From Tremella fuciformis (Eukaryota; Basidiomycota; Tremellomycetes; Tremellales; Tremellaceae), in assembly GCA_032768795.1 (NCBI GenBank), contig CP136494.1:1426001-1490000 (forward strand): a DNA stretch of 64,000 nucleotides. Direction: 5' to 3'. The notes under the pieces are model-generated. The model was not told where the DNA came from. It worked only from the letters and a program-made list of their open reading frames with translations, and did not search any database. A program made the translations under genes and the position numbers. Below are positions 50,929 through 64,000 of this stretch, piece after piece. Numbering within the stretch: the stretch's first letter is position 1; every line of letters begins with the position of its first letter.

Positions 50929-50969
50929 ATCCACGGCCATAGAATACGAAAAACGCCCCATCCCGTCCG
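50929..50969 (+). pseudogene. 5S rRNA gene, 5' third (interrupted gene, copy 1)
   Basis: Begins ATCCACGGCCATAGAATACG and ends CATCCCGTCCG, the first about 41 nt of a basidiomycete 5S rRNA. The gene is broken here by a non-LTR retroelement fragment; the rest resumes at 51434. Confidence 0.85.
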
Positions 50970-51433
50970 TCTCCCCGGACTTTGCGGCGGAGGAGTACGA
51001 TGTCAAGGTCATCGTCCTTGCGGCGCCCACGCACCAACGGGAGCTGCACGCCTCCCGCCGGCCCGACCCCTCGCACATGACGGAGACCCGTGCCAGGATT
51101 CAGGGGGTTTTGGCCCATGCGGCAAAGCGGAAGGTCAACGCTCTCCCGACACGCCCGGCGGACGCTGTCGACACGCCCTTCCTCCCCTTGATCTTCTCGT
51201 CCGGTGGGGTCCTAGAGAGTGAGACGAAGGCAAAGTTGCTGTCGTGGAAGTCGTGGGGAGTGACGAAGAGCGCGTTTGAGTGGATGATGACGAGTTTGTC
51301 GGTGGCGTTGGCGCGGGCAAGGGGAAGAACGTTCGTCACTGGTTGAGCGAACGTCCTCCCCAAGCCCAGAGGCCAAAAGAGACGATCGAGCCGAAGGACA
51401 ATTTAGCCCCTATGACATGCATCTAACTCTGGG
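50970..51433 (+). mobile_element. 5'-truncated non-LTR retrotransposon inserted in 5S rDNA (copy 1)
   Basis: This 464-bp insert carries only the 3' end of the element: codons for DFAAEEYDVKVIVLAAPTH, then PFLPLIFSSGGVLESET and a stop at 51344-51346, plus about 90 bp of 3' UTR ending ATGCATCTAACTCTGGG. The peptide is the C-terminal restriction-like endonuclease domain (D ... DVK core, as in PD-(D/E)XK enzymes). It is nearly identical to the same part of the longer element at 58137-58599 on the other strand. Similarity to that copy starts at CCGGACTTTGC (about 50974), so this copy lost its 5' part, as is typical of LINE insertion. The apparent ORF starting in the 5S part at 50894 is a read-through artefact. 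Confidence 0.82.
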
Positions 51434-51502
51434 CAGCTAAATCGTGTATCGCTCAGCTAGTACCATCGTGGGGGACCAGATGGGAATCCTGAGTGCTGTG
51501 GT
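51434..51502 (+). pseudogene. 5S rRNA gene, 3' part with pol III T-run (copy 1)
   Basis: Starts CAGCTAAATCGTG and includes GTACCATCGTGGGGGACCAG then AATCCTGAGTGCTGTGGT. A T5 run (51502-51506) follows, as at a pol III terminator. With the 41-nt 5' part it accounts for nearly all of a 118-nt 5S gene. Confidence 0.85.
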
Positions 51503-51657
51503 TTTTGGGTTTTGTGTCTCTCACTGGCTTGTTCAGCAATGCATTAGGACCAAACGACGCGCAACTGAAAGCTGATTATGCGAATGACATGCAGGGTATG
51601 GAATATCTATATCTACTGAGGGGGAGATCTCTGGGATACATTTGGGCACATGGGCAA

Positions 51658-53634
51658 TCACCACCCTCCTATACGCCCACCGTCGTCAAACCAAGCATCT
51701 TCGAACCCGGCAAAGGGCCGTCCCTCGACCTCCTCAACAGGCTCTTCCATCACAAACTGCCTCTCGCGCTCCGCGTCAGACAGCCGCTCGTATGCGAGCG
51801 GGTGCCAGTCGAGGTCGAGGCACATACCCCGTGCAGCGCCCATGTAGACCCAGGAGTGAGCATAATTGAGTGATGGCTCGGAGTACAAGTCGATCGACAT
51901 GCGTTTCTGCGGATCAGCTACGAGATTATTCGACGTGAATCGGAGAGGCTAACGACATGCGTGAACAGACTTCCTCGGTTGAGTCCACCATTGCCCATGT
52001 GCTTGAGCAGATTGCTAAGCGTCAGACCTGACCAAATTTATCGAACACAGCAGGACATACGAGTGTACGAATAACGGGGGATACTCGGTCATGCCTTCCG
52101 GAATGTCCAGATCATATTGTAATACAGAACTGGAGTTCAGTTCGGTGTTCCGCTTAGCACTCACGCCACTCACTGCCCGCAGAATCTCCCGTCTTCAAAC
52201 TGGTTTCGGGTGCCAACCGTTGACATCCACCTGGGACTCGTGCCAAATGGAATGTCAAGCATCCTCCAAGACCATCGGAAGGTGTCTTTGTCTCCACCGC
52301 ACATCTTGAACCAGAACTCGCGATCCTCCATCATCCCACTGGCGAGCCAGAGCGCAGCCAGATTCAAGCCTCCATTGCCGGCTTTGTCAATCACCATCTG
52401 ACCCGACTCGAACGTCCAGTCCCGCAGAGAGCAGTCGTCTCCGACGATCCGCCAGATAGCATTGTCAGGATGGTCCTTTGACAGATCGGGCCAAAATACC
52501 GCGCGTCCCATATCGGTGTATCTGGGCGAGTCGAAGAGATGAGAAGGATCTCGCAAGGGCGTGTTGTCCGAGTCGAGGTAAAGCACTTCACGGAAGGACG
52601 ATTGCACGATGGCGAGGCCTTTGATCTGCCAATTCTTCCATACGCCTCCGACTTTGTGCACATCTCGTATCTGGCGTATGGTTGCGCCCAAATCAGTGAT
52701 GATCCGCCGCTGCCCCTGGTCGTGCAGCTCATCCTCGTAATGAAAGACCTCGATCGGAAGCGTCACTCCACGTCGTTTCAGAGTCCGGAGTACAGTGATC
52801 ATACGAAGCGTCGTATCCTGCATAGTCAGACGAGCTCGAAATGCCTCTGATCGATGCGCGTACTTGATTCCCTCCTGTCAAGACGATACCCTTGGACCCG
52901 CCCATGTTCTCCGAGCCCAGGATCCGCTCTCCGGCTAGCAAGTGCTTGACGAGGTAATTGACCAAGCTCGCGCGCTTCTCTACGATCACCTCGGGGGTTA
53001 CCTCTTCTCGCCAGAACTCTCCATCTCCGCGATACTGATCCGGGTTGACGAGCAGATCGTTGACTTCGGTCGGACACGAAGCGCGATTGTCTTCGATAGC
53101 ATCTGCATAGGATCTGGCGGGGCGCAGAAGGAAGTTGTTGAGCCTGAGAGCCAAAGGAGCGAGAGAAGGGATGAGTAGTGGCGTAGGGAGCGTCTTGCTG
53201 GGGAAATATTCTCCATACGTATCTGGTAGGGTAGGCAGGCCTTGACTGGTGGGCGCGGTCCACGAAGTGGGCAGTAGAGTGATGTTCGCCTTGATCCCCG
53301 GCCGGGCGTAGAGCAGGGTCCCAAGAAGACCCGAGATCACGAGCAGCACGAGGATAGTGGGCGAAGTGACAAATCGTCCGAGGACAGGTGGTAACGCCAC
53401 TCTGCACTTGCTGCGCAGCGCCGCAGAAGAGAATGTCGCGTTTCTCGGTGGGTACGTGGGGGTGTGCAGTCTCCGTATCAATGGACGCTCGCGCCTCTCA
53501 TCGATGGGCGACAGCGAGTCCTGCGATCCGCGCGAGGGCGAGCGCGCCCTCAGCGAGTACGTCGGTGACTGCTCGACATCCGAATTGGTTACGGCTGTAT
53601 TGATGACCAGCTTCTCCCTCGCCGACGTAGGCAT
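51658..53634 (-). CDS. type II membrane mannosyltransferase, MNN1/MNN2-like (GT71)
   Basis: Exons 52864..53634, 52174..52817, 52061..52129, 51957..52014 and 51658..51906 give 596 aa. A cytosolic tail of about 85 residues precedes one signal anchor (SPTILVLLVISGLLGTLLY). The catalytic domain has GIVLTGGNQDTTLRM, GVTLPIEVFHYEDEL, the DxD motif in EVLYLDSDNTPLRDP, VFWPDLSKDHPDN and ESGQMVIDK. These match the Mannosyl_trans3 (GT71) family of Golgi alpha-mannosyltransferases that extend N- or O-glycans. Linkage specificity cannot be told. The gene ends 155 bp beyond the broken 5S gene. Confidence 0.87.
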
Positions 53635-54321
53635 GATGGGTCAGACAGAGCAAATGTCACTTGGTAACTATGTAGAGAAACGCCCAAGCCCCATTCGAGG
53701 GCGACAAAGGAGGGGTGGGGATGTCGGACGAGGATACAGATGGGACATTTGGAGGGAGACTTCGTTTGCCCTTGGCGCACACGCGGGGCTGGGCAGGGGC
53801 AGACGATCAGAGAGCGACGAAGGTGGTGACGGGGTGGGACTGGGTCGTGCTGCGGCCTTTGGCTGCGTGTTGGTGCTGCGTGTGGTGTTTTCGAGGCGCG
53901 AGCTACTGCGTATCAAGCTCCGGTCCATTGCTGCGGACGGCATAGAAAGGTCACGTGCGGGTGATTAGACTCGTCTTTGTAATATGGCCCGATCACGGCT
54001 AATCGGCGATCTCTATTGCCTAGTCAGGGATTAGAGCATCAAGGGATCTCGGAACACGTTTTGGGTGGTAGAAGGAGAGACAGACGACCTCAGCGGTCAC
54101 CCATTTACAATAGCAGTCGTGTTCACACGTTGTAACCCCGACGCCGCTCTCACATGCATGCATATTGGGCGTACATCCACATGACAATCTCGCTCCCCCT
54201 CAATTCGTAGAAAGCTCATATGGTCCGCAAGTGCCAGTAGAGGTTCATAGAGGTCGGACCAATCGTCATCGGGAAATTGGAATCAATCCGTCAGGTCAGC
54301 ATCAGCCGGCGGCAAGGGCAA
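53635..54321. promoter_or_regulatory. divergent upstream region of mannosyltransferase and ZIP genes
   Basis: About 690 bp; no ORF, RNA or repeat that I can support. Confidence 0.35.
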
Positions 54322-55688
54322 ATGTCGGCGTCACCACTGGAACCTTCACCCTTCTTTCTCGATTTACCTATCACTACCGCCGCTCCTACGCACAGGACAG
54401 CGGGAATGGGACTGCCCATTCTCCTGGCGCAATGCGTCGCCATGTTCATCGCCTCGTTTGCATTTGGCAGCCTGCCGCTCATGTTCCACTCGGCCATGTC
54501 GGGTGAGTCATCCTCGCGACGGACGGGGTGAGTCGAGCGAGCGTGCGGCTGACCCGCTAGGTAAACGCCTCAAGGCCGTCTCCGTACTCGGCATGGGCCT
54601 CCTCGTGGGCGCCGCCTTGACGGTGATCATCCCCGAGTCGGTAGTCGGCCTGATGTCACCGCCCAGCTGACAGACAGGGGTATCACGACGCTGTACGAAT
54701 CCCTGCCGGCTGACCACTCACACGGCCACGAGGAGGGCACGACCCACGCCATCGGCCTCTCGCTGCTCAGCGGCTTTGCCCTCATGCTGCTCATCGAGTC
54801 ACTCATGCCCCATCCGCCGCACTCGCCACCGCCCTCGCTCCTGTCCACACCCCGCAGCCCCAGTCCGACAACGCCCACCACGCCGTTATACACCGACTCG
54901 AGTCGACCGTCGATAGACGGTGCGCGGCCGCCGAATCAGCACATGGACTCGCACACGCCCATCATCGCCAAGCGGATGCATGTCGAGGACAGCGAGCAAG
55001 GCAAAGGGTACCACGAGGGCCATGGAGGACTGGTGGAAGGAGGCGTGAGGGGCTTGAATGCCACGCTCGGTCTGGTCATACATGGCGCGGCGGACGGCAT
55101 CGCCCTAGGCGCCAGCAGCCTTTCGGGGCGCAAAAGCCTGGGCTTGATCGTGTTCCTTGCTGTGCTAGTGCACAAGGGTGGGCCGCGTGACCTCGCATAA
55201 TGTGCTTGAGCTGAACAACTAGGCCCCACAGCGCTCGGCCTCACCACCACTCTCATGTCGCTCAAGCTATGTCCGCCTTCCATCCGTCGAAGGCTCTTCA
55301 TTTTCTCTCTAGCCGCTCCCCTTGGGGCTATCGCTACGTACCTCCTCGTCAGCCTCTTTGGCTACCACGGGCAAGGGTCGGACGGGACGAGCGAGATTGA
55401 CGGCTTGTCATGGTGGACAGGCATAGCCCTTCTCTTCTCCGTACGTCCCTTTCATAATTACCCCTCAAGCCACGCTGACGCCCATAGGGAGGTTCGTTTC
55501 TCTACGTCGCGACTGTGATCCAGCCTCTCTCGTCCGACTCTTCCTCGGAACATTCCCACTCTAGCCACGCACATGCGGATACGGGACATCCGGATGACCC
55601 CCAGTTGGGCAAATACGTCCGCACGGCCCTGCTTGTGGGCGGAATGATCCTCCCCATGGGGCTCGGTCTGCTCGTCGGCGACCACTAG
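54322..55688 (+). CDS. ZIP-family zinc transporter (SLC39A9-like)
   Basis: Model join(54322..54502, 54561..54636, 54678..55177, 55223..55440, 55488..55688) gives 391 aa. ZIP features are present: TM4 motif GLVIHGAADGIALGAS with its His and Asp metal ligands, TM5 FLAVLVHKGPTALGLTT, and a His-containing loop (ADHSHGHEEG and HEGHGG) between TM3 and TM4. The last loop is also His/Ser-rich (SSEHSHSSHAHADTGH). The length and the HKGPTALG motif match the SLC39A9 branch, which is found on Golgi or plasma membranes. The start at 54322 is chosen as the first ATG of the exon; the ATG giving MGLPILLAQCV is an alternative. Confidence 0.88.
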
Positions 55689-55853
55689 ACGTGAAACCCG
55701 CCCGAGCGCAAGCAAAAAGGGAGATACCCTTTCCCACTGTCCCGGCTCACAGCTCACATTGTACATACGTCCAGCAATCATGGAGACATCAAGGAGAACG
55801 GCATCATGGTATTGTATGCATATACACACATGCGGGAGATGCAACATAGGATC

Positions 55854-57798
55854 TTACAACTCTGTGCGACTGCCGAGCTGGATTGGCATCTGGGGACGCG
55901 TGCCGGCGTCCACCGCGATGGTGCCGTTCTCTTCGATTGTAGAGGAGAGGATGACGCCCGCCACGCTCGTCCGGCCCATCTTGAAGTACGGCCTGCCATC
56001 CGGTCCGGCCGTCACGCCCCCAAACAAGACGCGCTTGACTCTACCCGGGACCGAGGGGAGGTCGAACTCGACCGTCTGGTCCCATCCGACATAGTGCATC
56101 TGCGCCACAAGGACCAGCGTCTCTGTCTCGCGTTTGCCGGTCCCACTCGAATGGTGGATCTGCCACGTAGCCACGTCCAGCCCGTTCTGCCCGTCGTACG
56201 GACGAGAAGTGCCCACTCGCGCTCGACTGTGCGCATGGTCGACGATGAATCGCCGCTGGGCGCTCAGGTGTCCAGCCAGCATGGTAGCGTTACCGAACAG
56301 GTCTGCGGTGGCCGAGTTGCCATGCCAGGCGCAGTGGCCGAGCGCGCCGTGATTGACAGCGAGCACAGTCTGCAGTGCGCCCTCGTCGCCCGTCGGCACG
56401 CGGAACCAGAACTCGTTCTGCCCGTCGTCAAAGGCTTGCGGGACGACCCATATTGGCACTTCCCTGCTACGGCCCATAGCGCGCAGCCGGGCGTTCCAGC
56501 TGTCAAGCCGACGCGACAGGTCGTAGAAAGACCCTTGACAGTTGTCGCAGCCTGAGGCGCCGAATGTGCTGTTGACCGGTGTAGACCATCGTTTGCTCCA
56601 CAACGGGTTCATCGCCACTGAGTAGACGTCGATCAGCAGGATGTCGGTGCCGGACGAGTACGGCCCAAAGTAGTAGTTATCGCAGTTCAGCACGAGAGCC
56701 GTGGGGTGGTATGGATCCAATCGGCGGATCAAGTCACGAGCGCGGACGGTCGAGTCGAGGGGCGTGGGTGGGCCGTCTGGCTCGTCTGCCGTATACCAAA
56801 CGAGTACGCCTGGGTCATGGCGGAATTCCCTCACCTGCTCTTCTACCAGGACTAGATCAGTGAACGCTGCAAGCGTTAGCCGGAGCTTTGAACCGAGTAG
56901 CGACAGGGCTGACAGTGGCGCATGTCGTACATGACTCCTAAGCCATTGTCGTGTGCTGCCTTGAGGTAGGAATGTATGACACTTCGATCTCCATTCGGCG
57001 CGTAGTCCGGACCAGGCGGAGTGGGATGGATCATGTTCATGCCCATTCGCTTCGCCCTCTCGATTCGGTCCATATGAGTCTCTTGGCCTGAAGCCTGACG
57101 CTCTTTATCGTCGGCGTAGAAAGTCTGGGAGTAAGCGGTGAGATGCCACTGAAGAGGCGGAGCGCACATCGTACCAACCAAACGGCACGATCTTTTCCCA
57201 GCCCCCGTTCCGTTCAACCATGAGCGCACCCGACAGGCGATCAATCTTGACCGTCGAACTGCCATAAGGGTTCGGCGGCAGGTACCAAAGCTCCGACTCG
57301 CTGCTGTAGGTTTCTTGACCGAGCTGGATCGTGCAGCGAAGCTCGTAAGGCTTGCTAGCAGCTTTCAAGCCGAACAGCTCGAGCGGCAGGGTATTGCCAG
57401 TCGAGCCCAGACGTAGCGAGCTTGTGGCCACTGTGCTGCCGTCCACCTCGACATTGACTGCGGCTATCGCACCGGGAATAGCAGACACTGGGATCAGCAA
57501 GCGTTACATACCAAAGGCGAGGAGATGTACGTGGTTGTCCAACATCCCAAGAGATAGGTGTATCAATGACAACTGTCGGCGGATCGGACGGGTCATCTAC
57601 GATGTAAATTGAGCTCGCGGTAGCACACCGAAAGTCAAGCAACGGAACTGCTGATTCGTCTGGCAACACAAAGTACGACTCGGGCGGCGGGGGGTCGTTG
57701 GGTGCGCCGAGCTCGTAGTGCTTGCCGCACCATTCGTCCCATGCCCTAGCGCTACGGAGGAGCAGCAGCGAGGCCACAATGGCACTTGCAAGTGTCAT
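55854..57798 (-). CDS. secreted glycoside-hydrolase-like TIM-barrel protein
   Basis: Exons 57531..57798, 57168..57487, 56914..57124 and 55854..56866 give 603 aa. The N-terminus TLASAIVASLLLLRSARA is a clear signal peptide. A beta-rich domain follows (about residues 90-190). A barrel-like region has VPFGWYDTFYADDKERQA, RAKRMGMNMIHPTPPGPD, DNGLGVMYDMRH and VLVWYTADEPDG, with the Glu and Asp of the last in the position of (beta/alpha)8 catalytic acids. A C-terminal beta domain follows, with VILSSTIEENGTIAVDAG. I do not recognise the exact GH family. Several N-glycosylation sequons occur. Confidence 0.78.
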
Positions 57799-58067
57799 GA
57801 TGCGATGCAGAACATGTCGATGCGACTGGGTGGTTGCCAGATGCCAAATGGCCTATGGAGAAGACAAAGGAGGTAGGAATTGGTGGTCGGCCTCCACACT
57901 CGTTTTGATCCGTTGATCAATCATTCATCATCACGCCGACCCATCACTCATCGCTCCGAAAAAGATCATCTTGCGACCATACAAATGGACAGGCTGGAGA
58001 TGCATGAGCTATGAGCTGCATACGATGCATACATTACTTATATATTTGCTGTGCCAAAATAGCAAAA

Positions 58068-58136
58068 ACCACAGCACCTGGGATTCGCACGTGGTCCCCC
58101 ACCGTGCTACTAACCAGGCGATAATCGATTTGGCTT
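58068..58136 (-). pseudogene. 5S rRNA gene, 3' part (interrupted gene, copy 2)
   Basis: On the minus strand: AAGCCAAATCGATTATCG, GTGGGGGACCACGTG and AATCCCAGGTGCTGTGGT, then TTTTT. It is 69 nt, exactly the length of the 3' part at 51434-51502, and the break is at the same 5S position although the two 5S sequences differ at many bases. The 5' part is not in the window; it would lie beyond the element and the LTR element inserted in it. Confidence 0.82.
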
Positions 58137-58604
58137 CCCAGAGTTAGATGCATGTCATTAGGGCTATATTGTCCATCGTCTCGATCGTCTCTGGTGGCCT
58201 CTGGGCTTGGAGAGGTCGTTCGATCAGCCAGTGACGAACGTCCTACCCCGCGCTCTCGCCAGCGCCACCGATAGACTGGTCATCATCCACTCAAACGCAC
58301 TCCTTGTGACTCCCCACGACTTCCACGACGACATCTTCGACTTAGTCTCACTCTCCAGGATGCCGCCGGACGAGAATATGAGCGGTAGGAAGGGCGTGTC
58401 CACCGCATCGGCAGGGCGTGTCGGGAGGGCGTTGACCTTGCGCTTTGCCGCGTAGGCTAGAACCCCTTGGATCCTCGCACGAGTTTCCGTCATGTGTGAA
58501 GGGTCGGGCCGGCGGGAGGCATGCAGCTCCCGTTGGTGCGTAGGGGCGGCGAGGACAACAACCTTGACATCGTATTCCTCGGCGGCAAAGTCCGGCGTGC
58601 TGTC

Positions 58605-58756
58605 TGTAACAATGCCAATAACCTACCACATAGCTATTGCACTGTCCAGCTAATACCACTGCACCAAAAGGGTCACGATAACCCGAGTCTGACCGAGACT
58701 CGCGGTTTGTGGTACATATAGGCTTGCAAGGTGGCGGTGTCACGTCCGACGTGACA
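58605..58756 (-). repeat. TRIM 3' LTR (152 bp)
   Basis: Direct repeat of 58983-59134. Its right end contains the near-perfect palindrome GTGTCACGTC-C-GACGTGACAC, shared with the other copy. Confidence 0.85.
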
Positions 58757-58982
58757 CTCTGCCCCACCTCCCATAGGCGCGCCCTCGCGCCTATTGCCCC
58801 TCCCCCGAGGTGCAAGCCTATCTGGAACCCGAAACGCACGCCTATCCTCACCGCAATGTGCATTGCGGGGGCCCCAGCCCTGTGAGGGGCCATGGACAAG
58901 ACGGTTTCCAAAGGCCGGGCAATAGTCCCCGAGCACACTCATTGGGGATTGAACCGACGACCTCCGTAGACTCGGGTTATTA

Positions 58983-59134
58983 TGTAACAATGCCAATAAC
59001 CTACCACATAGCTATTGCACTGTCCAGCTAATACCACTGCACCAAAAGGGTCACGATAACCCGAGTCTGACCGAGACTCGCGGTTTGTGGTACATATAGG
59101 CTTGCAAGGTGGCGGTGTCACGTCCGACGTGACA
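58983..59134 (-). repeat. TRIM 5' LTR (152 bp)
   Basis: Second copy of the direct repeat. Read on the minus strand it begins TGTCACGTCGG, the same 11 bases that open the Ty3/gypsy LTR at 61359. Confidence 0.85.
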
Positions 59135-61358
59135 CTGTCCCCGGTGTTGTCGACGCGGATGTCGTTCCTGCGGCGGGGGCCGTTGAAGATGAAGGGCTCG
59201 ACGGAGACGGACAGGAAGGGGCCAGAGCGGAGGCCGTCCGCCAGTCGGTGCTTGACAGACTCATGCCGGGGCACACGGAAGTCACTGCGCGCTGGGCAGC
59301 ACTCATCGTGTCCCACGACGTTTGGCTGCGCGCAGCTCTTGCAGGGCCCGGAGCGGCCTGCGGTGAGGGTCCGGTACGCCAGGTTGGCCTGGACGACACG
59401 GTCTGAGAGCTGGAACCTTGCCGAGGATGGCAGGGTCTCCAGCCACCGTCGTCCCAGCATGCTCGATGCTTCCGCCAGGGCCACGCGTTCGTGCGTCTGC
59501 AGGGAGGTCATGAGGTCTTGTTGTTGTTGCTGGAAGACCTCCCTACATAGCTCGCGCTGCGTTGGCGCTGGCGTGTCGGACATGAGCGACGGGAAGAGCG
59601 GAGACAGTACCTTGTCGGCCAGGGCGTTGGCAGCCCTAGTGGCATGCGGGGCGCATGCGAGGTGTGAGAGGAGGCCCACCCCGCCAAATGACGGGGGCAG
59701 AGAGATGATGGCTCGGTCCCGGCTGAGCTCGGCAGGCTCGAGCGGGCCGCGGATGTTGTCGAACGCGCTCCACAGAAGGTTGTCGAGGCGTCTCCAGTCG
59801 TCCTGGAGGTCCCCCTCGTCGTCTAGGGTGCGGATCAGGTGGCGGAGCTTGTGCTGCGACGACCGGCGGAGGATGAGGAGTGCGTGCTGCTTTGGGAGGT
59901 GCTGGAGGCTGTCGAGCTGCGGGGCAAGGTCAGAGATCTGGTCCCGGAGAAAGGTGCTGCGGGCGTCCTTAGAGCCGATGCGGGTGCCAAGGATGTCGAT
60001 GGGCTGGCTGTTAAGGCAAGCATTGAGGTCGTATACCTGGCACTTGGAGGGGTTGAGAGAGAGAGGTGAGCCCTCCTCCTTGAAGTAATCGAGCGCTTTG
60101 TCCAGGTCCTCGGCGTTGGCGGTGAGGATGAAGATGTCGTCAAGGTATGCGAGCACAAGGCAGTCTGGCCCCAGGATCTCCTGGAGCCCTTCGACGAGCG
60201 GGCGGATGCCGATGGAGAAGAGGAGAGGGCCCAGGGGGTCTCCCTGTCGGATGCCCTTGGCAGATGGGATGGTGACCGTCGAGCCAGCCGAGTGTACGTA
60301 GAGTGGCGAGGGGTTGTTGTAGCACCAGGCGGCAAGGCGGGTCATCGAATGCGCATGCGATCCGAGGGACGAGGCAAGGAATGAGCGGGTGATGTCGTTG
60401 AAGGCGTTGTTAGAGTCGAGGCTGATGAGGTGGGTGAAGTGGTGGAATCCAGGGTGCTTGCGGACTGCCATCTTGACAGCGCGAACGATCGGCTCGACAC
60501 CGCCTTGGGTGCCGACGCCGAACTGGTTTGGTGAGAGGAAATCGGGCTTGAAGTTGGCTTTGAAGAGGGACTTCATGGCGAGGCGGTAGAAGATTTCCCC
60601 CACGGCGATGGGGCGGATGCCGGGAACGGCGTTGGGAGGGGCGTCTGCCGGGAGGGGCTTCAGCAGTGGGGTGAGGCGGGCGGCGCAGAGGAGATCGTGG
60701 CCTGGGGCCGTACCTGATCCCATCTCTGCGGTAAGGCTGGTGAGGAAGGAGACAAACCCGGGGGCCGTGGTAGCGTGGGAGAGGAGCTTCACTGTCCACC
60801 CCGATGGGCCAGGAGATGTGCCGTTATCCATGGATCGGAGCGCTGAGAGGATGTCGCTAGATTCCGGCAGTTCGGGGTAGGGCGTTGAGGCGTGGAGGGG
60901 CATTGAGAAGGGGTTGTCTTCGCCTGGCGGGTGCTTCTGGCGGAGCGTGTCGATGGTGGCCGGCGTGAGGTCGGCGATCCCAGTGGTGTCATTGAGGGCC
61001 CGCTCCGCCTTGCTGATGAATCCGGCCTCGACAAGGGCCTTGGCGCGGCGCACTTTGCTGCCCGCCTCGGTCCCCTGTGAGGGCGGATCCGGCATGCGGA
61101 CGTTTGGGTAGGCCTTCAGCCTCTCAAACACCGCGTCGTGTCCCTGCTGGATGGCCGGCACCAAGCCCACCTTGATGACGGCTAGGATGTGGAAGAGGGT
61201 GCGCCTGGATGGGCTACTGGCGTGAGCGCCGGCAAGTCGCTCGACGCAGGCGGCAAGCGGGGCGACGAGCTTGGGGTGGAGGTGCTTATTGATACCCGGG
61301 AGGGGCAGGAGGTCGACTAGGGTCATGTGGTCCCCATAGAAGTCGTCGGGTCCGGGGC

Positions 61359-61762
61359 TGTCACGTCGGCCACGCCTCCATGATCACCAAAGCACGCCTA
61401 CGAGCCTCGTTCCAGCCCAGCACGCCTGTCAAACACGTGAGCCTATCGTCGATCCTCGAGTAGCCTCGACGACGCTCGAGTAGCCTCGACGACTTTAGAG
61501 CTCGAGCCTCGTCGATGGTGTTTCAAGGAGAAAGCCCAAGGCGGTGCAGAGGAGGGCACGGGTGATATATATACAAGTCCTCACCCGTAGACCGTCCTTA
61601 GCACCGTGGTATTGAGTCCCATGGATAGAAAGTAACGGCGCAGCCGTGTTGTCGACGCACGAGAGGCTGTAGGACACACCTTCTCGTGGAAGACAGAGAC
61701 AGATCAACAGACAGCACGTGTGAGAGGGCCTATCAGTCGACGACCGGCCTGGCCCCGTGACA
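61359..61762 (+). repeat. Ty3/gypsy 5' LTR
   Basis: This 404-bp segment begins TGTCACGTCGG and ends CCCGTGACA, giving the short inverted ends TGTCAC/GTGACA expected of an LTR. It contains a degenerate tandem motif (CTCGAGTAGCCTCGACGA, about 61456-61493) and a TATATATA box (61565-61573) suited to the promoter. It lies directly upstream of the gag ORF and cuts the non-LTR frame. The 3' LTR is outside the window, so both ends are inferred. Confidence 0.75.
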
Positions 61763-61800
61763 GTATACCACGGTGCTACTACCTCTCACACGACTAGTTC

Positions 61801-62943
61801 ATGGCACCATCGACTCGACGAACCACGTCGACAGATCCTGAGCATCAGCACATTGCTCTACCCACAAACCTACGACTACCGGTGGACACTCGACTGAGAG
61901 CCGCCGCGACCAACATGGCCCAACCATTGGGTGATCAGCCGTCTGTGCAGCAGTTGCTCGCGCAAATCGTGCAGCTTCAGGCGGCCCTCGTCGAGCAGCA
62001 GGCGCAGCAACGACAGGGCTCGCCAGGCGTTGGGAACCCGTCCGAGCCGAAGGCGAACCCGCCTGACACGTTTAACGGCAAGGACCCAGCCGCTTTGGAG
62101 CGGTTCATCATGCAGTGCGAGACGGTCTTCAAGCTGCAGCCGTCGAAGTTCTCTGGCGACACGCACAAGGTCATGTATGTGATCTCGTTCCTCAGGGGAT
62201 TCGTGCTCGACGCGATTCAGCCCTTGGCGACAGGGCGAGACAGCGATTTGAACGAGAACGGAGAGCATGTCGAGGCTGGCGACTACCTCGACGAGAAAAT
62301 TCGGACTTACGCTGGGCTTCGTCGCTACCTGCGCGAGAACTTTGGGGATCCCGACGCGAAGGGGACTGCTCGACGCAAGTACTTCTCGCTGCGGCAGACG
62401 GGATCGGCAGCCGAATACTTCGCCAAGATTCGGGAGTACACGTCAGTCCTCTCATGGGAGCTCGACGAGCAAGCAACGGCTCGTGCCAAGGAAGGGCTCT
62501 CCGACGTGCTTCAGGACGAGGTGGCCAGGCACCCCAAAGAGTTCGAGACCTTTGCCGAGCTGCAGGCGTTTGTGGTCCGCCTCGACAACAGTCTGCGAGC
62601 AAGGGAGGCAGAGAAGAACAAGGCGGAGAACAGGCGAGAGAAGAAGAAGACTGTCCTGGGCGGCAACAACGGCGGATCTACAGCGGTTACGTCAGAGGTT
62701 GGAGCGGCGGCGACGAACCCCAGACCCTCACCTGGCCCGACAACCTCGTCGAGTCTCAACTCCGCTGCAGCCCCTCGACGAGTCTACCCTCCTCGCCCTA
62801 GGCTCACTCCGGACGAGCACGAGAGGCGAGGCAGCCAGGGCCTTTGCTTCAAGTGCGGAAACGCTGGGCATCTTGCGCGCGACTGCCCAGGCTCGTTCAA
62901 CCCCGGCCAACGCGTGAAGCAGGAGCCGCAGGGGGAAGCCTGA
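61801..62943 (+). CDS. Ty3/gypsy Gag (capsid plus CCHC nucleocapsid)
   Basis: 380 aa. A short coiled-coil (VQQLLAQIVQLQAALVEQQA) precedes the retrotransposon capsid domain (PDTFNGKDPAALERFIMQCE through YFSLRQTGSAAEYFAKI). A basic, disordered stretch leads to one zinc knuckle, CFKCGNAGHLARDC (CX2CX4HX4C), near the C-terminus. Gag assembles the cytoplasmic particle that packages the element RNA. It ends in TGA at 62941-62943, and pol continues in the -1 frame. Confidence 0.9.
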   Translation: MAPSTRRTTSTDPEHQHIALPTNLRLPVDTRLRAAATNMAQPLGDQPSVQQLLAQIVQLQAALVEQQAQQRQGSPGVGNPSEPKANPPDTFNGKDPAALERFIMQCETVFKLQPSKFSGDTHKVMYVISFLRGFVLDAIQPLATGRDSDLNENGEHVEAGDYLDEKIRTYAGLRRYLRENFGDPDAKGTARRKYFSLRQTGSAAEYFAKIREYTSVLSWELDEQATARAKEGLSDVLQDEVARHPKEFETFAELQAFVVRLDNSLRAREAEKNKAENRREKKKTVLGGNNGGSTAVTSEVGAAATNPRPSPGPTTSSSLNSAAAPRRVYPPRPRLTPDEHERRGSQGLCFKCGNAGHLARDCPGSFNPGQRVKQEPQGEA

Positions 62944-64000
62944 GGGGTCCCGAGCTACAAGGAGAAACTCGAGACCCCGCTCCATACACACTCTCCGCCC
63001 TCACGCCTCCTGAACAACCGACTTCACCTCTCAAATCCTCTAATCCGACGCCCACTCACCCACCGACGGGGTCCGCTTCCCTCGTCGAGGAAGATCAACA
63101 TGAAGAAGAAGCAGAGGACCTGGAGTCCGAGAAGGAGTCTGTACAGAGTGCTAGTGATGCCGAGGAATGCATGAGCGGTGAGGCTTACAGGCTGGGAAGG
63201 CATCAAGCTGTCGTAGCAGGAAAAGTGGACGGGACGGCCGCTTGCATACTGTTAGATACAGGCGCAGGCGGGACCTTCATTGATCAGGACTACGCCGAAG
63301 GCCAGGGCTTGACCCAACAGAAGTTGGAGCGACCCAAGAATGTCCTCCTGTTCGACGGCGAACCGTCATCCGCGGGCGAAATCACCCACGAAGTGGTGGC
63401 CCCGGTGGAGACGCTTGGGGAAACAAGTGAAGAACGGCTAGCGGTTACGCGGCTCGCAGGTGCAGACGTCGTGCTAGGGTACGACTGGATGCAAGAGAAG
63501 AGAGTAGTCATGGACATGGGAGCTATGGAAGTCACCCGTGGAGAAGAAAAGGTGGCCTCGTCGACGGTCGTCGAGGCTGCTTCAAGTGATCTGGCCATTT
63601 TGGCTACCAGAGCAAGAAGAGAGAGAGGAAAACACGCGGGGCAGTCCCGTAGGAGCTCCCCGAACCATATCCCCTTGCGGATCAATCGGTGGGAGCAGAA
63701 CAGGCTCGCCGCAGAGCGGCTGCGAGGGACTGTCACCGACGAGCTCGAGGAAGTGGTGGGGCGTTTGGACGGGCATCTTGGGTTTGACGAGTACACTCTG
63801 TCAGAGGAGGAGTCCCAGGCGGTGCGAAGGATCGTTCCGGAGTACTACCATGAGTTCCTCGATGTGTTCCACCCTCGTCGACCCGCCGACACGCTGCCGC
63901 CGAGTAGAGAATACGACCTGCGGATCAGACTGAAGGAGGGCGCAGAACTACGGGTCGCACCGCTTTACCAACTGTCGCCGGATCAAATGAGAGCACTCAG
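62940..64000 (+). CDS. Ty3/gypsy Pol, protease and start of reverse transcriptase (partial)
   Basis: The -1 frame relative to gag is open from the gag stop to the window end. After an acidic linker it has the aspartic protease with ACILLDTGAGGTFIDQDYA (catalytic DTGA) and the second-strand pattern DVVLGYDWM. The RT lead-in follows, with YYHEFLDVFHPRRPADTLPP and REYDLRIRLKEGAEL. There is no start codon upstream of the protease at the right place, so expression presumably uses -1 ribosomal frameshifting near CAGGGGGAAGCCTGA at the gag end. The protein is cut by the right edge before the RT catalytic motif. Confidence 0.85.
   Translation, partial: MRGPELQGETRDPAPYTLSALTPPEQPTSPLKSSNPTPTHPPTGSASLVEEDQHEEEAEDLESEKESVQSASDAEECMSGEAYRLGRHQAVVAGKVDGTAACILLDTGAGGTFIDQDYAEGQGLTQQKLERPKNVLLFDGEPSSAGEITHEVVAPVETLGETSEERLAVTRLAGADVVLGYDWMQEKRVVMDMGAMEVTRGEEKVASSTVVEAASSDLAILATRARRERGKHAGQSRRSSPNHIPLRINRWEQNRLAAERLRGTVTDELEEVVGRLDGHLGFDEYTLSEEESQAVRRIVPEYYHEFLDVFHPRRPADTLPPSREYDLRIRLKEGAELRVAPLYQLSPDQMRAL

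Follow-up and report, generated by a model that had tools for sequence, protein, structure and literature searches.

The stretch of DNA analyzed here, called the window below, comprises 64,000 nucleotides of Tremella fuciformis (C5:1426001-1490000, where C5 is contig CP136494.1) and is part of a 28.14-Mb genome in 11 contigs. It contains two copies, A and B, of a non-long-terminal-repeat (non-LTR) retrotransposon of ~4 kb, each inserted in a gene for 5S rRNA. With a probability of about 0.93 we regard it as a site-specific long interspersed element (LINE) of the restriction-like-endonuclease type, i.e., a relative of the R2/CRE group, with the 5S rRNA genes of its Tremellales-like fungal host as target. 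Among named matches a host protein encoded in the window is closest to Tremella mesenterica (48%), with Kwoniella and Cryptococcus next; an ENA protein reaches 86%. Its full length is ~3993 bp and it has two overlapping open reading frames (ORFs). The two loci are composed as follows (window positions unless C5 is given):

50929..50969, + strand: 5S rRNA gene nt 1-41, 5' target half of locus A
50970..51426, + strand: copy A, a 5'-truncated element of 457 nt, 456/457 nt identical to the copy on contig C1; it holds the C-terminal coding part of the endonuclease, a stop codon ending at 51346 and an 80-nt 3' untranslated region (UTR)
51427..51504, + strand: 5S rRNA gene nt 42-119, 3' target half of locus A
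58066..58143, - strand: 5S rRNA gene nt 42-119, 3' target half of locus B
58144..61358, - strand: copy B, 3' part of the element from the reverse transcriptase (RT) to the 3' end, carrying a 530-bp LTR-type insertion
58224..58604, - strand: copy B, second endonuclease part and end of ORF2 (EYDVK ... stop)
59135..59343, - strand: copy B, CCHC motif and first part of the restriction-like endonuclease (RHE, EP, RRND)
59980..60621, - strand: RT domain (PF00078, E 6.6e-19) with YLDD motif, copy B ORF2
Beyond the window: 5' 1.3 kb of copy B, ending at C5:1505392
C5:1505393-1505444, beyond the window: 5S 5' half of locus B, nt 1-52

The two copies thus lie on opposite strands and both run into 5S sequence at the 3' end, as a reading of the window from its letters alone (the sequence-only reading) had described. 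The sequence between them (51505-58065) is not element, and the sole match of copy A elsewhere in the window is copy B. They lie ~7 kb apart on one contig and represent two of four copies.

Genome-wide the family consists of A and B on C5, one copy on C1 and one on C7. Searches of the genome yielded four matches with the 3' end of the element as query and three with its 5' end. The corresponding RT search gave 17 rows, five from the four copies (66-100%) and 12 distant ones (25-41%); in stretches fetched around the distant rows (L049-L056) no match to four 5S queries was found at E up to 1. Copies A and B are 84% identical in the element. The C1 and C7 copies differ by about a third outside the first 39 nt, and within element nt 1-39 only two differences between them are seen. 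None of the four copies in this assembly appears intact: besides the truncation of A, copy B is disrupted twice, by the 530-bp element and by an ~17-kb stretch bounded by LTRs that also separates the 5S halves of its locus, the C1 copy contains an inserted LTR element (357/360 identical positions between its LTRs), and the C7 copy has one frameshift in ORF2, besides an uninterrupted RT-endonuclease frame of 784 codons. Nevertheless, the near-identity of the A and C1 copies speaks for recent movement.

A DNA search of the genome with one 5S gene revealed 25 places, namely 17 intact genes and eight half genes, and the latter pair into exactly four loci, which are those of the four element copies. 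Rfam lists 18 intact 5S genes above its cut-off and additionally locus B below it. Both counts are lower bounds. The genome contains at least 22 5S genes, dispersed as single genes, and a comparison of these loci shows four of them split by the element, all at the same base. The 18 intact genes (L009-L026) vary considerably, and at least L025 and L026 are clearly distinct from the others. A shared TATA-like motif upstream of the 5S genes was considered and discarded as too weak (T at -29 in 14/22, exact words in 8/22).

All four copies reside in different 5S genes in the same orientation, with the 3' junction at 5S nt 41|42. The element terminates in GACATGCATCTAA, the final CATCTAA being common to 4/4 copies and meeting 5S nt 42. 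The fixed site that had been placed at about nt 41-49 therefore stands, with nt 41|42 as the exact junction. The adjoining 5S piece, formerly given as 69 nt, is actually 78 nt long (nt 42-119), the CTCTGGG assigned to the element being part of 5S. Such pieces had been noticed at the 3' ends only; those are real, and in addition the 5' half (nt 1-41) is present in the window before copy A.

At the opposite end CTTTCTACAGC is common to 3/3 full-length copies. Their first letters, (C)TTTCTACAGC, follow 5S nt ~52, and nt 42-52 are consequently present twice. This 11-bp target-site duplication reads CTCTGGGAAGC at copy B, CTCTGGGCAGC at C1 and CTCTGCGCAAT at C7, a length that may also be counted as 10-12 bp at C1 and 11-12 bp at B because a neighbouring letter is shared. 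The duplications vary between the loci and agree on both sides within a locus, i.e., each repeats the local 5S variant. Copy A consists of 456 nt identical to the C1 copy and one extra T at the 5' junction and has no target-site duplication. Minus the repeat, the 5S halves add up to exactly 119 nt at 4/4 loci, and each joined gene agrees with its closest intact counterpart at 112-113 positions (compared with the intact genes except two that differ in length). Target specificity is understood here as the occurrence of independent copies at one nucleotide of a multicopy gene, which is found for 4/4 copies; a duplication of fixed length accompanies the three full-length ones. The 22 known 5S genes of 119 nt each make up 9.3e-5 of the genome, and on this basis the chance of four independent 5S hits is p ~7e-17, before the shared nucleotide and orientation are counted.

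Divergence of the element is uncoupled from that of the surrounding 5S gene: copies A and C1 agree at 456/457 positions of the element vs 103/119 of the 5S parts, and for A and B the values are 84% vs 99/119. The 1-kb flanks of the four loci show no mutual match at E 0.01. Since A and C1 are almost the same element in differing 5S genes with unrelated flanks, they are separate insertions of one mobile element. This extends to the genome what had been proposed for the two copies in the window, i.e., independent insertion instead of a duplicated block, and the copies on C1 and C7 likewise end in 5S genes and not in unrelated sequence.

The reading frame of ORF1, which overlaps with that of ORF2, begins 14 nt from the 5' end of the element, with almost no 5' UTR; one homologous protein was found (P0197, 63%). 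ORF2 encodes an RT, a CCHC motif and a C-terminal restriction-like endonuclease. The layout of RT and C-terminal endonuclease had already been recognized in the sequence-only reading; Pfam (for the RT), the conserved motifs and the fold predicted for the protein bear it out. Pfam places the RT domain at residues 255-468 of the ORF window:58942-61383:-. In an alignment of 17 sequences C681, C684, H692, C696, R706, H707 and N740 are invariant, and the motifs CCHC, RHx, RND and DxK are present, the final K being absent in P0016; the reading frame of copy B itself is broken by an insertion at the region of this last K. In sequence searches of the PDB R2 ranked first. The AlphaFold model (pLDDT, i.e., predicted local distance difference test, 91) has R2 proteins as its top seven Foldseek matches with E 7e-21 to 7e-17, the best single match being R2Tg (7e-21) and the best LINE-1 reaching 6e-13; at 16-19% identity the alignments to R2 proteins cover RT, CCHC and endonuclease through the C-terminus of the model. 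Up to E 1, Pfam detected no apurinic/apyrimidinic endonuclease (APE) domain in those pieces of the ORFs that were scanned.

Selection on the coding parts is evident from the ratios of nonsynonymous to synonymous substitution rates (dN/dS), which amount to 0.31-0.40 for ORF1, 0.15-0.20 for the N-terminal part of ORF2, 0.10-0.21 for the part from RT to CCHC (computed without the LTR element inserted in copy B) and 0.03-0.15 for the endonuclease. At the RNA level, Rfam gave no ribozyme like that of hepatitis delta virus (HDV) and no other RNA family at the 5' end with E up to 1, and folding of the 3' UTR showed nothing beyond shuffled sequences (z -0.87, -0.83, +2.10). Runs of TTTT are few (two in the C7 copy of 3993 nt), and transcription of the whole element by RNA polymerase III (Pol III) is not claimed.

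Among 7998 scored candidates 274 protein relatives were found at E 0.001, and the best 120 of them are described here. The nearest among the matches listed, P0001 aside, are environmental proteins of at most 51%, along with three proteins of Kwoniella shandongensis (48-50%). The Cryptococcus neoformans protein P0059, which we take to be Cnl1, is 36% identical. An RT tree of 50 rows was reconstructed from 43 of the best 120 proteins, copies B, C7 and C1, two large relatives from the same genome and two R2 fragments. The window family falls into a clade of 19 rows that also holds Kwoniella and environmental ones and is not fully supported (81/100), and P0059 belongs to a separate 20-row group (88/92) within the same fungal set. 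With midpoint rooting the two R2 fragments, covering 42% of the columns, are separated from the remaining 48 rows (100/100). Virus contigs gave no relative (0/94 pattern stretches). In prokaryote genome contigs there was one (1/32), and this is on a fungal-looking contig in a cyanobacterial assembly: contig76 of Tolypothrix sp. FACHB-123 (L060:1566-5312) has a LINE ORF of fungal appearance with 1248 aa (39%) and, behind it, a stretch rich in TATCTC/TTTTTA, and no 5S match was found within the 9.9 kb covered. It is a probable contamination of the public bacterial assembly.

Two distant RT-endonuclease relatives (37%) are found in the Tremella genome itself at C7:2117961-2122541 and C2:725098-728469, with ORFs of 1526 and 1123 aa. 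Both lie antisense inside genes resembling transporters of the major facilitator superfamily (MFS), recognized by Pfam MFS_1 on C2 and by eye on C7. A second site-specific family in MFS genes was considered and rejected, since the two insertion positions are ~30 codons apart and no site is shared. Between the transporter fragment and the 1526-aa relative there is a perfect 13-bp tandem repeat, ATCTCACCTTTTC, in 7.8 copies (L049:641-741, C7:2116641-2116741).

Two LTR elements are nested in copy B:

58605..59134, - strand: 530-bp non-autonomous LTR element of the type called terminal-repeat retrotransposon in miniature (TRIM), with two identical 152-bp LTRs and the duplication GACAG
61359..61763, no strand assigned: one LTR of a retroelement that has inserted into copy B, with the duplication GCCCC; it marks where copy B ends on the right within the window

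At least five full copies of the TRIM at 99-100%, this one included, and many further LTR matches occur in the genome. By eye an A-box-like word is seen inside its LTR and a B-box-like one, GGTTCAATCCC, just internal to it. The element is possibly akin to Helenus (PMC10886601). The LTR retroelement spans 61359-64000 and continues to C5 ~1504000, with ~17 kb between LTRs that are identical at 405/405 positions. Its ORF at 61798-62943 looks gag-like by eye, with a zinc knuckle.

Concerning the choice of the site, it is likely that the targeting rests on sequence reading by the protein of the element itself, and 5S transcription factors may help. Recruitment mainly by the Pol III machinery or TFIIIA on 5S genes, with an endonuclease that adds little sequence choice, is the less convincing explanation and appears rather unlikely to us. 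In its favour we count that 5S genes are Pol III genes and that the insertion lies just 5' of the internal promoter region, going by the usual position of box A. Elements directed by Pol III are known, e.g., Ty3 and TRE5-A near tRNA genes, but those described in PMC5911963 insert outside the gene with a spread of 1-4 bp (Ty3) to ~1 kb (Ty1), whereas here 4/4 copies occupy one position inside the gene, three with 11-bp duplications, and 0/4 are located at a tRNA gene.

It is very improbable that a weakly specific, Cnl1-like element has survived in 5S genes by chance after its other copies were purged. The fetched relatives from the same genome are indeed not in 5S genes, and the mainly subtelomeric Cnl1 is described to have also hit the gene FRR1 (PMC12810828), but the value of p ~7e-17 holds for the 5S target alone, and purging cannot explain the same nucleotide and orientation in 4/4 copies. 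A segmental duplication of one block of 5S and element with later conversion of the 5S parts, which could be suspected from two of the four copies lying so close together on the same contig, has practically no chance in view of their opposite strands, the lack of any flank match among the four loci (1 kb, E 0.01), the uncoupled divergence and the locus-specific duplications. We equally dismiss a chimeric element with 5S as its own head and tail instead of a target: 5S does adjoin both ends in 4/4 copies, but the halves track the locus rather than the element, each duplication copies the 5S variant of its own locus, a complete 119-nt gene results at 4/4 loci when the halves are joined, and no copy among those found carries 5S ends into non-5S DNA.

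Site-specific integration into 5S genes is thus retained, and the fixed 3' junction, the 11-bp repeats and the 5' truncation can be read as marks of target-primed reverse transcription as established for R2. Regarding the order of nicking, the DNA-reading part of the protein and the start position of the RNA we infer the following course. The ORF2 protein, guided by its N-terminal zinc-finger-like motifs, would bind the 5S gene, and the endonuclease would nick its bottom strand at nt 41|42. The 3' end released there would then act as primer for reverse transcription of the element RNA, beginning at its terminal ...CATCTAA. Cleavage of the top strand ~11 nt further on (after nt ~52) and fill-in would create the 11-bp duplication, and incomplete reverse transcription may lead to truncated copies like copy A. 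Because ORF1 starts 14 nt from the 5' end, transcription of the element RNA probably begins within the adjoining 5S leader or upstream of it. More speculatively, and rather doubtful at the moment, a Tremellomycete lineage of restriction-like-endonuclease LINEs, corresponding to the 19-row clade, might inhabit dispersed 5S genes in general with a 5S-started chimera as its RNA. This chimera is suggested by the lack of room for a 5' UTR; 5S nt 1-52 would serve as mRNA leader and afterwards as homology for a precise 5' junction at the next insertion.

Among the known systems, Mutsu is a member of the Tx1/L1 group with an apurinic-type endonuclease. It is described as a non-LTR retrotransposon of the 5S rRNA genes of zebrafish with two ORFs (PMC3706591, PMC11202950). 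Target gene and number of ORFs are the same in the window element, which in contrast possesses a restriction-like endonuclease, shows no APE domain in the scanned pieces and has a fungal host. Jockey-like LINEs are reported to recur in 5S arrays of Tribolium freemani (PMC11202950); these are likewise non-LTR elements in 5S but differ in their insect host, their Jockey-like nature and the tandem arrays with satellite DNA. Dada-5S of fish, as presented in PMC8869645, shares the target gene but is a DNA transposon.

The elements Cnl1, MoTeR1 and FoTeR resemble the window element in their fungal hosts and in the combination of RT and restriction-like endonuclease. In the accounts consulted they are telomeric or subtelomeric (PMC12810828, PMC12857005), the exact specificity of Cnl1 being called undefined, whereas here the target is 5S in 4/4 copies and not telomeric repeats or spliced-leader exons. 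Moreover, one large ORF is described for FoTeR and MoTeR1 (PMC12857005) in contrast with two in the window element, and in the tree the RT of the latter is placed with proteins of Kwoniella and from the environment, separate from P0059. R2 is its best Foldseek match over RT, CCHC and endonuclease and likewise has an rRNA gene as target, but the site of R2 is in 28S, and the window element has a 5S site, two ORFs and no HDV-like ribozyme by Rfam. Among the top-listed open-licence papers of PubMed Central we found no fungal 5S-specific non-LTR element; an entry in Repbase is possible. As far as the literature was searched, there is no earlier report that combines a fungal host, a 5S target and an R2/CRE-type endonuclease.

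Four of the five clades with restriction-like endonuclease are mostly target-specific according to PMC4640811, and the element described here adds 5S rRNA genes to the targets of such LINEs. Together with Mutsu in animals this points to convergence. R2-based insertion tools would also have a natural comparison in an RT-endonuclease that cuts 5S at a defined site. The notion of a multi-copy safe harbour, put forward in the sequence-only reading, needs care: the gene is multi-copy, but the target comprises 22 known dispersed single genes, four of which are split. It is therefore a test case for the view that large redundant arrays are a requirement of site-specific elements. Finally, 5S genes are also scattered in nonpathogenic Cryptococcus, where mobility mediated by retroelements has been discussed (PMC12633873), and a link between the two is possible.

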